Below, piece by piece: positions 1,293-5,677 of a stretch of DNA of 21,340 bases (positions are counted from its first letter, which is position 1; each line of letters opens with the position of its first letter). Under the pieces are notes generated by a model, which was given only the letters and a program-made list of their open reading frames with translations, had not been told where the DNA came from and did not search any database. Origin of the DNA: a virus; IMG/VR virus record IMGVR_UViG_3300022752_000453, positions 1 through 21,340 of that record; one strand, given 5' to 3'. The position numbers and the translations under genes are program-made.

Positions 1293-3269
1293 TTAAAATG
1301 GACATTCTTTTGTGGGGGCGACACCTCCGTAAGAGAATTTATCAATGGTCTCTTGGTCCCACGGAGTAACCGGCTCTATTTTAAATCCCTTATCTTCAAG
1401 GAACTTTAAGTTTGGGTACACGTCACTTGGTTTCTTTGGCTTTTTATCCTCCTCGAATTTCATTTCGGACTGAACAAACTTGTCGTCAATGTACTTCTGC
1501 ATGTAGTCCGTGCCTCCAAACGTGTATCTCCTGGTTGATCTGTTAAGTTCAAAGTCAAAACTACCCTTGACCCCGACTATTTTCTGCCTTCTGATTTTCT
1601 TTGAATGAAACTCACACGCAGGGTTGTCTGGGGTGGTCTGTGCAAATGGTCTGTGGTAGATCAAGATATTGTCAGCCTTGTTGTTCCACATCGCCCCATC
1701 AGCGAGGTCAAACACATCAGGGCATGGGTAGTTCCCGTCATCGCCCTTCTTCATCTTGTGAGGGTGAACAACTATGTCAAAGTACACATTGTTCTTCTTT
1801 GCAAACCTTGAGCAATCAGACAGGAAGGTTTCAAGATACTTGTCGCTCCTACCTCCGCTCTTGCCGTAGTCGTTTGCCATTTGGTTGAAGGGGTCAATCA
1901 CAACCCGCTCAACCCCGTGCTTGACAACGAGACTGAGGAAAACTTCTTTTACATAATTCGGTGTTGGGCTTACGCTCTTTGGGTACACCATGAAGATATT
2001 TTCCCCAATCCAATCATACACCTTCATGTACGACTCGTGGTGCGGTCTCATAGGGTTTCTTGGCGTGCAATCCCTTCCGAAATAAATCTCAACAAGGTCG
2101 TGGTAGAACTGCTCTGCCGGTAATTCTTCGGGTGTGAATATGGCGACCTTTTCACCAAATCTTATGAGCCTGAAAAGCATCTCCCACTTCATGAAACTTG
2201 ACTTTCCGTAGTTACCTATACCGCTGATTACGGTTAGGTCTCCCTTTACCCTTTTGAAGTGTTTATCAAGTTCAGGCACACCAAGTTCTTTGGCTTGAAT
2301 GTATCCGTTGAGGTAAATTGATTCGGCAAATGATCTAACGTCGGAGGCGTAAATAACATCCTCCTTGCCCATGTCTTCGAGGTTCTCCTCGGTGAGAACA
2401 ACGTCAACCTTGGTCCCGTCTATTTTGGTTACCAGCACATCGTCTTTGAATTCGGCTGTGCCAAATTGAGCCATGCTTGACTTATACGCGCTCTTTACCG
2501 CGCTCTGACACTCAAGCCTTGTGAAACTTGAGTCAGCACTAACGTAACCAAGAATTAGGGTTTGAGCCTCGTTTTCGGGAATACCAAATCTGCAACACGC
2601 TGAAGCGAGTTTGAACACAAAGTGGTTTCTTTCCCCCTCTCTAAACGCGTCTCCTCGCGAGGTCATCCACTTAATCAGCTTCCCAAACACATCGTCTCCG
2701 CTTTGAATGACCATTGCAATCATCTCCCTCTTTTCCTTTGAGACGGTCTTATCGTACTCCTTAGCGTTTTTGTTTATGTAAATCTCTGGGTCATAAGACT
2801 CAAAACACAGTCTCGATAGGTTTCTTCCCGTCCTGTCAACCCCCGGTATCTCCTCAAGCATAGACGCAAAGTGTTCGTTGTGCAAGTTCTTGTGTTTTAT
2901 TTTAACAAGAGCCTTCACGCCGTTTCCGCTCGGGGAAATCCAAGTTGCCGTTATGTAAGAAAGTTTTGAGAGTTGCTCCTTCTTCTTTTTTACGTCTTCA
3001 ACTGCATCAAAGTCAAGCACTATATACCCCGAATGCTCAATCAATTCGGAGTCCTTTCTTGACTTGAACGTTCCGCTGAAGCAAACGGCGGGCAAGGTTT
3101 TCTTTACATCGTCAGCTTCTTTTTTGGATAGGCCCTGCGCCTTTAAGACCGTGTCTTTCGACTTGCCTTGTGCGATTCTTTCAAGGGCCTTGTCAATGCT
3201 TATAACATGCCCCACTGTGTCGTTAAAGTTTCTGTAAATAGAAACGTTACCAAGTGTTCTGTCTGTCAT
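1293..3269 (-). CDS. Primase-helicase fusion (BT4734/VirE-type primase plus DnaB-like helicase)
   Basis: A 658-residue bifunctional replication enzyme. Residues about 55-170 form the primase-polymerase part: GYIVLDFDAV (81-90) supplies a DxD metal site, ISPSGNGVK (111-119) is the SPSGxGxK nucleotide-binding motif of this family, and DRTGRNLSRLCF (145-156) follows. Residues 190-265 look like the helical primase C-terminal region. From about 325 to 585 lies a RecA/DnaB-fold helicase: Walker A GIGNYGKS (350-357), Walker B RVVIDPFNQ (455-463), an HPHK motif at 502-505, and the KADNILIYHR segment (531-540) typical of DnaB/Twinkle-like helicases. It would unwind DNA and synthesise primers at the phage fork. 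Its start overlaps the end of the initiator gene by 23 bases. The primase half is a type frequent in Bacteroidota mobile elements. Confidence 0.88.
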   Translation of the reverse strand: MTDRTLGNVSIYRNFNDTVGHVISIDKALERIAQGKSKDTVLKAQGLSKKEADDVKKTLPAVCFSGTFKSRKDSELIEHSGYIVLDFDAVEDVKKKKEQLSKLSYITATWISPSGNGVKALVKIKHKNLHNEHFASMLEEIPGVDRTGRNLSRLCFESYDPEIYINKNAKEYDKTVSKEKREMIAMVIQSGDDVFGKLIKWMTSRGDAFREGERNHFVFKLASACCRFGIPENEAQTLILGYVSADSSFTRLECQSAVKSAYKSSMAQFGTAEFKDDVLVTKIDGTKVDVVLTEENLEDMGKEDVIYASDVRSFAESIYLNGYIQAKELGVPELDKHFKRVKGDLTVISGIGNYGKSSFMKWEMLFRLIRFGEKVAIFTPEELPAEQFYHDLVEIYFGRDCTPRNPMRPHHESYMKVYDWIGENIFMVYPKSVSPTPNYVKEVFLSLVVKHGVERVVIDPFNQMANDYGKSGGRSDKYLETFLSDCSRFAKKNNVYFDIVVHPHKMKKGDDGNYPCPDVFDLADGAMWNNKADNILIYHRPFAQTTPDNPACEFHSKKIRRQKIVGVKGSFDFELNRSTRRYTFGGTDYMQKYIDDKFVQSEMKFEEDKKPKKPSDVYPNLKFLEDKGFKIEPVTPWDQETIDKFSYGGVAPTKECPF

Positions 3270-3921
3270 ATTCCTGTGTTTTAGTTTGTTTTTGTTCTAA
3301 TGGCTCATCCTCCCACCTTCTGTCTCTGAGGTAGCGAATTGGGTCCTTCCAATACTTCCGCTCGCGGCCCAATTTGTGGTTGTTCATGCCTTCCACAGCC
3401 TTGATTTGATCATCATTAGACATTTTATTCCATACAGCCTCAGTCTGCTTCTTATCAACCTTCTTGTCGTATGAATTCCAAAAATCGCTGAATATATATT
3501 TATTATATTTTTCTTTGTTAGAATCTCTTTCTTTATATAGGGGCGGTTTAACCGACTCTTGGTTTTCACCGACATCGGGAAAACTCGAAGTCGGTTTTTT
3601 TACCACCTCATTCAACTGAGGCGAATCGTAAACAATATGGTTCCAACCCATCATTTTGCCCGACGAAACGTCAATATTGCGGCAACTTAAAACATAACCC
3701 TTGTCTTGTAATGACTTAAACACCCTGTCTACTGCGTGTTTGCTGTCAGGAACTTGGTCGTATAGGTTTTTCTTGTACAAAACCCAATTATCTGGAAGCG
3801 ACAATAAAAAACACAGCATACCCTTTTCTTCAAAGTTTAACTGCATGGATTGTGAGATTTCATTTGGTATTATAGCAAAGTCATGTTTGCGCCTACCTTT
3901 TACAATTTGTCCTGTATTCAT
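3247..3921 (-). CDS. Phage replication initiator / helicase-loader-like protein
   Basis: A 224-residue protein in two parts. Residues 10-80 resemble the winged-helix N-terminus of RepA/O-type initiators (NFEEKGMLCFLLSLPDNW, then KHAVDRVFKSLQDKGYV as the probable recognition region). Residues about 145-205 contain FWNSYDKKVDKK ... W...YWKDPIRYLRDRRWEDE, a C-terminal module recurrent in phage replisome organisers and DnaT-like proteins. Between them (about 100-143) is a polar low-complexity linker encoded by AT-rich DNA. It is the first gene of the leftward operon, directly ahead of the primase-helicase, which fits a role in recognising the origin and loading the helicase. Both the domain assignment and the loader role rest on recalled patterns; a transcription factor with a similar winged helix is the alternative. 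Confidence 0.65.
   Translation of the reverse strand: MNTGQIVKGRRKHDFAIIPNEISQSMQLNFEEKGMLCFLLSLPDNWVLYKKNLYDQVPDSKHAVDRVFKSLQDKGYVLSCRNIDVSSGKMMGWNHIVYDSPQLNEVVKKPTSSFPDVGENQESVKPPLYKERDSNKEKYNKYIFSDFWNSYDKKVDKKQTEAVWNKMSNDDQIKAVEGMNNHKLGRERKYWKDPIRYLRDRRWEDEPLEQKQTKTQEYDRQNTW
3486..3620. other. Candidate replication origin inside the initiator gene
   Basis: A strongly AT-rich tract (about 3486-3540, including TATATATTTATTATATTTTT) lies next to three copies of the hexamer ACCGAC: direct at 3551-3556 and 3568-3573 and inverted at 3590-3595. A short perfect inverted repeat CCTCA-TTCAAC-TGAGG follows at about 3606-3621. All of this sits in the part of the gene that encodes the flexible linker between the two protein domains, which is where the lambda origin lies in gene O. 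The pattern is seen directly; origin function is inference. Confidence 0.35.
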
Positions 3922-3926
3922 AATTT

Positions 3927-3961
3927 GAAAAATAAAGCCCGCGAGAGCAACTTCACGGGCT
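3927..3961 (-). terminator. Intrinsic terminator-like hairpin upstream of the initiator gene
   Basis: The minus strand reads AGCCCGTGA, an 8-base loop AGTTGCTC, then TCGCGGGCT (3961-3936), a 9-bp stem with one G-T pair, followed at once by TTTATTTTT (3936-3928). The plus strand has no matching U-tract downstream, so the element is oriented leftwards. It ends only 6 bases before the ATG at 3921, which suits an attenuator as well as an RNA 3' end. Confidence 0.7.
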
Positions 3962-4032
3962 AAATTAGGGTAAGTTAGTTTACCTATCCAACCCTCGTTT
4001 ACTGTTGCTCTGAAGCAAACGACGGCTGAACG
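3927..4032 (-). ncRNA. Structured leader RNA or small ncRNA ending in a terminator
   Basis: On the minus strand, transcription from the TAAATTTG box would start near 4032 and reach a terminator at 3961-3927, giving about 105 nt. The segment can fold into a hairpin TTGCT-TCAG-AGCAA (4018-4005) with flanking CGTTT/AAACG, a second hairpin GGTAA-ACTAAC-TTACC (about 3985-3970), and the terminator hairpin. No ORF with coding character lies in it. Because the terminator stands just before the initiator start codon, this is either an independent small RNA or a 5' attenuator that gates the replication operon. It matches no riboswitch class I can recognise. Confidence 0.5.
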
Positions 4033-4036
4033 GCGA

Positions 4037-4044
4037 CAAATTTA
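4037..4044 (-). promoter_or_regulatory. Leftward -7 box (TAAATTTG) of the divergent region
   Basis: An exact TAnnTTTG match on the minus strand. No clear TTG lies 19-21 bp upstream; a T-rich run is nearby. It would drive the structured RNA and, by read-through, the replication operon. Confidence 0.5.
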
Positions 4045-4643: not shown

Positions 4644-4893
4644 AGAAAACTACGCCAAGATTATTGAGGTTTTCTCTTACTACTTGGAAAGGGATGACCT
4701 CGGTTGTCATGACGCGGAATTTCTCATGCAAGATGAGGATGCCAATGAGCTTTTTAATTACTCTTACCACACGCTTCGCAGGGCTGTAATAAAGCTCAGA
4801 GACAAAAAGAACATAGGCAAGAAAAACTTTGACAAGCAAAAGGAGATATTAAAAATCTACAAGAACAAAAGAAGTGAGTTACCAAGAGGTTGA
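4624..4893 (+). CDS. Small charged protein, unknown function
   Basis: 89 residues, with an acidic middle (AEFLMQDEDANELFNY) and a strongly basic C-terminal helix ending in KNKRSELPRG. It shows no membrane segment, no Cys pairs and no recognised motif. It overlaps the preceding gene by 20 bases and the following double-Cpn10 gene by 20 bases, so it belongs to the same translation-coupled block. DNA binding by the basic tail is possible but unsupported. Confidence 0.55.
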   Translation: MIRTKSKENYAKIIEVFSYYLERDDLGCHDAEFLMQDEDANELFNYSYHTLRRAVIKLRDKKNIGKKNFDKQKEILKIYKNKRSELPRG

Positions 4894-5677
4894 TATAGAA
4901 AAACTCCGAATCATAAACGGGGAATGTTTGATTGAGATACACTCTCTTGTTGAGAATGAGATTAACTTCAATGGAACAAAGTTGCAGATTGTAACAAGCG
5001 TAAAGGGTTCGAATGACTTCGCGCACGAGAACGATGTTATGGACCTTGTAAAGCGAATGAAAAAATTTCATTACAAGGACAAGGAGGCGGCGATGGAGTA
5101 CACAAAAATGGTTGCCTCTTTGAACAAAGAATACGACAAGGAAAAGGAAGACCACCAGGGCAAGCAGGCGGTAAGACACGGTAAACTTGTGAAAGTGTCA
5201 GAGAAGAACGTTGACTACGGGGGGTGGGATTATGCTTGTGAATTTGATGCCCAAATTGGAGACGAGGTTTGGTTTGACGCAACCTTTACGAGAGACCAAC
5301 TCGACATGTCTGAAAAGGTGTTTGAAAACAACGGTAAGACCTATATGCTTATCCCTCAAAAGTCAATCCATGCCGCGATGAGAAACGGGGAAATGATTAG
5401 TGTAAACGGCTACATACTTGGCAAGGTGTTAAGCAACGAAAGAAAGTCGGGCGGCATTTTCCTTCCCGATAGCAAAACGGCAAGGGTAGAGGTAGTTGTT
5501 CCCAACCCAAGAGCTCCAAAATACGTTGCGGACATTTGGAACAATACCACAGTAAAGAAGGGCGATGTGGTTTGCATGAATAAGATTTTCGCTATTAAAC
5601 TTGACTCAACATTAGCAGAGACAACGGACTTAGTAAGATTCCAACCGAGGGTTATAGTTGCGGTAGAGAATGATTAA
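4874..5677 (+). CDS. Double-domain Cpn10 (GroES)-like co-chaperonin
   Basis: 267 residues that read as two fused Cpn10-type domains. In domain 1, GECLIEI (16-22) is followed by a charged helical insertion at about 45-98, then RHGKLVKVSE (101-110, cf. RGEVLAVG), AQIGDEVWFDAT (126-137, cf. VKVGDIVIFND) and NNGKTYMLIPQKSIHAAM (152-169, cf. DNEEVLIMSESDILAIV). In domain 2, GYILGKVLSNERKSGGIFLP (179-198) contains GGIFLP, matching the GroES mobile-loop GGIVL triad that docks on GroEL, then VKKGDVVCMN (227-236) and VRFQPRVIVAVEN (254-266). GroES is about 97 residues with one domain; the tandem form recalls chloroplast Cpn20. By analogy with T4 gp31 it would work with host GroEL to fold phage proteins such as the capsid protein. 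The start is a GTG at 4874, the only suitable start near the previous stop. No other co-chaperonin candidate of normal size is present. Confidence 0.65.
   Translation: MSYQEVDIEKLRIINGECLIEIHSLVENEINFNGTKLQIVTSVKGSNDFAHENDVMDLVKRMKKFHYKDKEAAMEYTKMVASLNKEYDKEKEDHQGKQAVRHGKLVKVSEKNVDYGGWDYACEFDAQIGDEVWFDATFTRDQLDMSEKVFENNGKTYMLIPQKSIHAAMRNGEMISVNGYILGKVLSNERKSGGIFLPDSKTARVEVVVPNPRAPKYVADIWNNTTVKKGDVVCMNKIFAIKLDSTLAETTDLVRFQPRVIVAVEND

Follow-up and report, generated by a model that had tools for sequence, protein, structure and literature searches.

The window, by which we mean the whole stretch of DNA that was analysed, is a virus record of 21,340 bases with DnaA-like, primase/helicase and RepO-like genes on its left and terminase, portal and virion protein genes on its right. 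Its terminase is nearest to those of Flavobacterium and Cellulophaga phages and, judged by promoter type and relatives, the host probably belongs to the Bacteroidota; all of the RNA-bearing sequences are metagenomic virus contigs. A candidate RNA lies on the minus strand (4044–3928), just ahead of the DNA-replication genes (Table 1), its start being placed from the −7 box and its end from the U-tract. A first-pass annotation had described here a −7 box, hairpins and a 9-bp terminator with a U-tract ending 6 nt before an ATG, and both this description and its coordinates were confirmed on the minus strand, with folding returning the two hairpins ahead of the terminator. The box conforms to TAnnTTTG, which is present at the equivalent site in 41 of 42 distinct homologous leaders. 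In the terminator scan, the H3 stem has six GC pairs among its nine and is followed by a T-rich tail, as in an intrinsic (Rho-independent) terminator.

Table 1 Features of the RNA locus and the adjoining replication operon (window coordinates)
Feature	Position	Strand	Basis
−7 box TAAATTTG (Bacteroidota TAnnTTTG)	4037–4044	−	Sequence
Predicted small RNA / repO leader, about 105 nt	3928–4033	−	Fold, covariation in 42 homologues, model match of 94 bits
Hairpin H1, 8 + 9 bp around a G-G mismatch; 10-nt loop at 4013–4004	3986–4031	−	Fold, covariation
H1 loop segment GAGCAAC, complement of 3951–3945	4004–4010	−	Pairing kept in all homologues
Hairpin H2 (GGTAA/TTACC)	3969–3984	−	Fold; present but variable in homologues
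Terminator hairpin H3, 9 bp, 8-nt loop	3936–3961	−	Terminator scan, covariation
Terminator loop segment GTTGCTC, partner of the H1 loop	3945–3951	−	Pairing kept in homologues
U-tract (TTTATTTTT), predicted RNA 3′ end	3928–3936	−	Terminator scan; T-rich tract in every homologue
RepO-like replication initiation protein; ATG at 3921, 6 nt past the U-tract	3247–3921	−	phrog_270, 4.5e-15
DNA primase/helicase, next gene of the repO operon	1293–3269	−	phrog_18375, 3.5e-54; BT4734-like_N, 1.2e-19

Elsewhere in the window, positions 54–605 encode a protein with a DnaA C-terminal helix-turn-helix (PF08299, 5e-12), likewise annotated in some Flavobacterium phages, and an open reading frame at 4874–5677 has a C-terminal co-chaperonin GroES (Cpn10) domain after about 180 residues without a match; GroEL/GroES are carried by related podoviruses. 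A replication origin was considered from the turn in GC skew at about 4000, but cannot be inferred because gene direction turns there as well.

The minus-strand RNA folds with −42.9 kcal/mol, compared with −25.2 ± 3.6 kcal/mol in 200 dinucleotide shuffles, none of which was as good (z −4.9); the opposite (plus) strand gives a weaker fold (z −3.1). Within the fold, the apical loop of H1 carries GAGCAAC, a perfect 7-bp complement of GTTGCTC in the terminator loop, which extends to 8 bp with the next pair. Neither this complementarity nor its diversification among phages, described below, had figured in the first-pass annotation.

Searches with the RepO-like and primase proteins collected 46 and 80 loci, respectively, from viral contigs, and 42 distinct leaders with an equal layout were found directly ahead of repO. 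In all of them the terminator directly precedes repO, with a T-rich tract in every homologue, and H2 with short linkers always separates H1 from H3, while the length of H1 stays similar. We scored the structure, including the loop pairing, on a MAFFT alignment of these leaders against 500 shuffles and slid partners. Overall, 92.2% of cells are paired and 17 pairs have changed on both sides, so that the covariation in homologous leaders on which the first-pass annotation had made its reading depend was indeed found; the covariation score is 0.293 compared with 0.171 after shuffling (reached in 0 of 500) and at most 0.102 with slid partners. The individual elements behave likewise: H1 is paired in 94.9% of cells, with both-side changes in 8 of 16 pairs, H3 in 99.4%, with such changes in 4 of 8 pairs, and the kissing helix in 98.6%, the misses coming from one leader (L031) that MAFFT misaligned and that by direct reading pairs GTAAGGC/GCCTTAC. 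All 42 distinct leaders thus keep the loop pairing, through differing sequences. This comparison shows that the predicted arrangement of three hairpins, a terminator and loop–loop complementarity has been maintained under sequence change.

Covariation cannot tell pairing within one RNA from pairing between two. The main rival to the self-specific feedback proposed below is a purely intramolecular contact, in which H1 kisses H3 of the same molecule, yielding a compact, nuclease-resistant three-hairpin RNA or tuning termination at H3, with the letters changing by compensatory drift and allele exchange and carrying no specificity. The constant placement of H2 and its short linkers between H1 and H3 speaks for such a contact, and the similar length of H1 also suits a fixed fold within one molecule; by a rough estimate, however, H1, the 7-bp contact and H3 would stack to about 90 ångström, near or beyond the reach of the linkers. 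On balance, we consider this purely intramolecular reading plausible but rather unlikely. A classical antiterminator, with the H1 loop invading the terminator stem, was disfavoured, as the two pairs flanking the 7-nt core fail in 13 of 42 and 9 of 42 leaders.

More distant relatives carry a different structured leader before the same operon (L105 3230–3343, L106 3160–3273 and L107 140–225), made up of a TATATTTG box, a long-range stem (GCGTATCCG...CGGATACGC in L105/L106 and CTACCAAGG...CCTTGGTAG in L107) and a shared TACATTGC; L130 possibly carries a leader of this type too. Many repO-leader promoters contain an inverted repeat, ACAACC-N6-GGTTGT, between the −33 and −7 regions, for example just upstream of L028:2882. 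This operator-like repeat reads ACAAAC-N6-GTTTGT, with both halves changed, in L003 (upstream of L003:2882) and is broken in some leaders. In most of L002–L047, a small open reading frame has its stop immediately ahead of the RNA promoter; its product ends like MCWDCEMWHIKNNEEN, with two cysteines as in a zinc ribbon. The window has other sequence at this place.

Across the 42 leaders and two distant relatives, L101 and L102 (primases only 48–49% identical), the H1 loops fall into five classes, GAGCAAC (class A, 19 leaders), GAACCAC (class B, 22 leaders), GTAAGGC, GTAGAGC and GGACTAGC, and the complement of each is present in H3. The two distant relatives have GTAGAGC/GCTCTAC and GGACTAGC/GCTAGTCC at the same place; they are about 95% identical to each other up to the −7 box and from the U-tract on, and the RNA in between has been replaced with its architecture kept. 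Classes A and B likewise occur in flanks up to 97% identical. In L044/L047 and L040/L042, with flanks 96–97% identical and H2 and the linkers nearly unchanged, both loops and the terminator stem differ together. On a tree built from the flanks, the H1 stem and H2, leaving out the loop and terminator columns, the class switched between A and B at least 7 times, with 5 switches forced by well supported branches, a count that is indicative only, as recombination blurs such a tree. Loop class is independent of RepO type, both types being found behind both A and B.

Diversified loops inside near-identical flanks hint at control of a copy-number or immunity type, and they speak against the purely intramolecular contact, which is in turn favoured by the nearly equal duplex energies of the loop pairs in classes A–D (−9.0 to −9.4 kcal/mol). 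Repeated class switching may also reflect recombination among a few alleles and does not necessarily imply selection for specificity.

The covariance model also matches a second site in several of the phages with the repO leader, and the layout there is that of the repO leader. The loop matches of this second RNA span 8–10 nt and fall into about eight classes (GTCTGACGG, GTCTGGTAG, GTCTGGTACG, GTTGGAGAG, GTTTGACGG, GTGTAGAGAG, GTCTGGCTGG and CTGGCACC), for each of which the terminator loop carries the complement. In nine sequences, the kissing helix is 100% paired, with six of nine pairs doubly changed, and in L279 an extra base in one loop is matched by an extra base in the partner. The kissing helix is more variable than the two stems (0.31 vs 0.16 and 0.04), a pattern that argues against the purely intramolecular contact. 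Among the genomes compared, the repO-leader RNA and the second RNA of one phage never share a loop.

A winged-helix protein gene begins directly after the U-tract of the second RNA in L225, L275, L276, L279, L280 and L285, and no evident open frame starts behind its terminator in L222, L223, L272 and others. Barring an unrecognised gene, these latter copies point to the RNA itself as a likely product, and such stand-alone copies show that its function cannot lie wholly in the control of a downstream gene. Near the second RNA, L225 has an Rfam tRNA match at 289–389 (36 bits, minus strand) that spans about 100 nt. In the 68,495-bp contig G014 one and the same RNA occurs at both ends (1964–2077 and 67556–67669), which makes a terminal repeat probable, in a circular or redundant genome.

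How specific this arrangement is was examined with a descriptor free of any sequence motif, which combines a hairpin and a terminator with loops complementary over at least 7 nt. Applied to 707 kb of phage DNA, the window included, it returned 14 matches, all at the two RNA loci, and none in shuffles; a relaxed version gave 22 matches, two of which look like chance, again with 0 in shuffles. Neither stretches from four annotated phages of Bacteroidota type nor the distant primase relatives yielded a descriptor match, and the covariance model, whose E-values are rough, gave 5 weak matches (34.9–36.5 bits) in a sample of 396 Bacteroidota genomes, none with complementary loops. Minus-strand model matches in the relatives were rejected as separate RNAs; they overlap the RNA and are mirror images of its palindromic hairpins. 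In isolate-phage DNA, the window leader gave short chance matches only, and the L028 leader and the second-type RNA of L272 gave none. Rfam returned no match at gathering in the window and nothing relevant up to E 10 in the RNA region. With covarying leaders, no Rfam match and a second copy that is often without an evident downstream gene, the suggestion of the first-pass annotation that this is a new phage small RNA is well supported.

The same annotation had offered an attenuator deciding whether the replication genes are expressed, which may hold, since the U-tract comes to its end only 6 nt ahead of the repO ATG, too close for a further promoter to fit in between. An attenuator of the replication operon that senses a ligand or protein, in the manner of a riboswitch, is a separate matter. 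The terminator directly ahead of repO in all leaders would suit it, whereas a conserved aptamer core is missing beyond a few letters, the sequence of all helices is exchangeable, whole RNA bodies have been replaced in L101/L102, second copies occur without an evident downstream gene and Rfam offers no match; we rejected the riboswitch assignment and regard such sensing as hardly credible.

Next to the two loops, no third recurring complementary site was seen among the matches listed in 11 phage genomes or contigs, only scattered 8–10-mers, and the full 9–10-mers of G002, G012 and G020 were found in the two loops only, again among the matches listed. Self-pairing is therefore the only conserved match seen, and the RNA seems, from these comparisons, to recognise only itself. 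This lack of a recurring third site also bears on a regulatory RNA of the c4 or P4 CI kind with other targets, whether host genes or other phage genes: the promoter and terminator are predicted to yield a free RNA, with loops exposed unless kissing, but the loops are also without the conservation expected of a target seed, and this explanation appears very improbable. Assignment to the c4/P4 CI antisense RNAs themselves was likewise rejected, with no recurring complementary site elsewhere among the matches listed in phage genomes and no Rfam match.

With a confidence that leans neither way, we propose that the window RNA belongs, as its repO-linked member, to a new family of terminated phage RNAs (about 105–115 nt) that recognise themselves by loop–loop pairing and feed repO through leaky termination. 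Most transcripts would stop at H3 and give the small RNA, and a minority would read through into the repO-primase mRNA, with the loop pairing allowing the RNA to recognise only itself. We hold it somewhat less assured, though a serious candidate, that the action of the short RNA is in trans, its target being these loops in the nascent or readthrough form of its own transcript, which would provide a self-specific feedback on the replication leader. Pairing between molecules is favoured by the unlike loop types in near-identical phages, by the two RNAs per phage without a shared loop and by the intermolecular nature of the covarying contacts in ROOL and GOLLD (PMC12286853). An RNA made in proportion to phage genome copies would then feed back on the replication operon, and unlike loop alleles would prevent cross-talk, both between related phages and between the two RNAs of one phage. 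More tentatively still, and rather unlikely in this full form, the exchangeable loop–loop code may constitute a self-recognition system of copy-number or superinfection-immunity alleles that act on the replication leader by way of its terminator loop, next to an orthogonal second RNA in the same genome.

A terminator loop that pairs with an upstream loop of the same RNA, and whose letters have repeatedly changed among near-identical phages, did not turn up in Rfam or in the literature searched. If the code works between molecules, it would amount to an RNA-based type of immunity or copy control in Bacteroidota phages; if it acts inside a single molecule, it would represent a new way of building a terminated phage RNA. 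Loop pairs that match or mismatch occur naturally in large number and provide ready experimental material, and the descriptor of hairpin, terminator and complementary loops can be applied to any genome set.

Among known systems, ColE1 RNAI/RNAII and similar plasmid copy-control RNAs use a 7-nt loop–loop pairing in replication control, with specificity that is changed by complementary loop changes. The partner RNAs of ColE1 type come from opposite strands, whereas here both complementary loops lie on the predicted minus-strand RNA. Type III toxin-antitoxin RNAs, which form tandem pseudoknot repeats before a ToxN-type nuclease, were rejected, the present RNA being a single three-hairpin unit with a replication initiator gene downstream. 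IsrK of Gifsy-1 is a short terminated RNA made from a prophage promoter that also gives a longer readthrough form, on which the short RNA acts in trans (PMC4825925). It shares the combination of a terminated short RNA and a readthrough isoform that is predicted here, and sets a precedent for the trans action proposed; host and downstream genes differ, and its abstract does not mention a match between H1 and terminator loops.

The prohead RNA (pRNA) of phi29 is also a small phage RNA with two different, mutually complementary hairpin loops, which pair over 4 bases and serve the packaging motor (PMC7357161), and covarying loops are found here too. By contrast, 7–10 bases pair in the present RNAs, one partner is the terminator loop and the downstream genes are for replication or a winged-helix protein; the prohead RNA family gave no Rfam match at gathering in the window and is absent from what the RNA region matched at E 10 or below. 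ROOL and GOLLD are likewise phage or prophage RNAs with covarying kissing loops, and their contacts were shown to be intermolecular (PMC12286853). They are large cage-forming RNAs, with many GOLLD members over 800 nt, in contrast to about 105 nt and no Rfam match for the present RNA. Both precedents, the prohead RNA with unlike complementary loops covarying between phages (PMC7357161) and the proven intermolecular kisses of ROOL and GOLLD (PMC12286853), would favour homo-oligomers built by kissing between H1 of each molecule and H3 of its neighbour, as in the phi29 ring, and serving packaging or replication as a structural element. That a phage has two such RNAs with differing loops, that they lie before replication or winged-helix genes and that a terminator hairpin is one of the partners nevertheless make this arrangement improbable. 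As not all of the tested defining features of any known family were found, we do not file the RNA under one of them; it is a genuine structured small RNA of phages, unlisted until now, whose self-pairing code is unusual and exchangeable.
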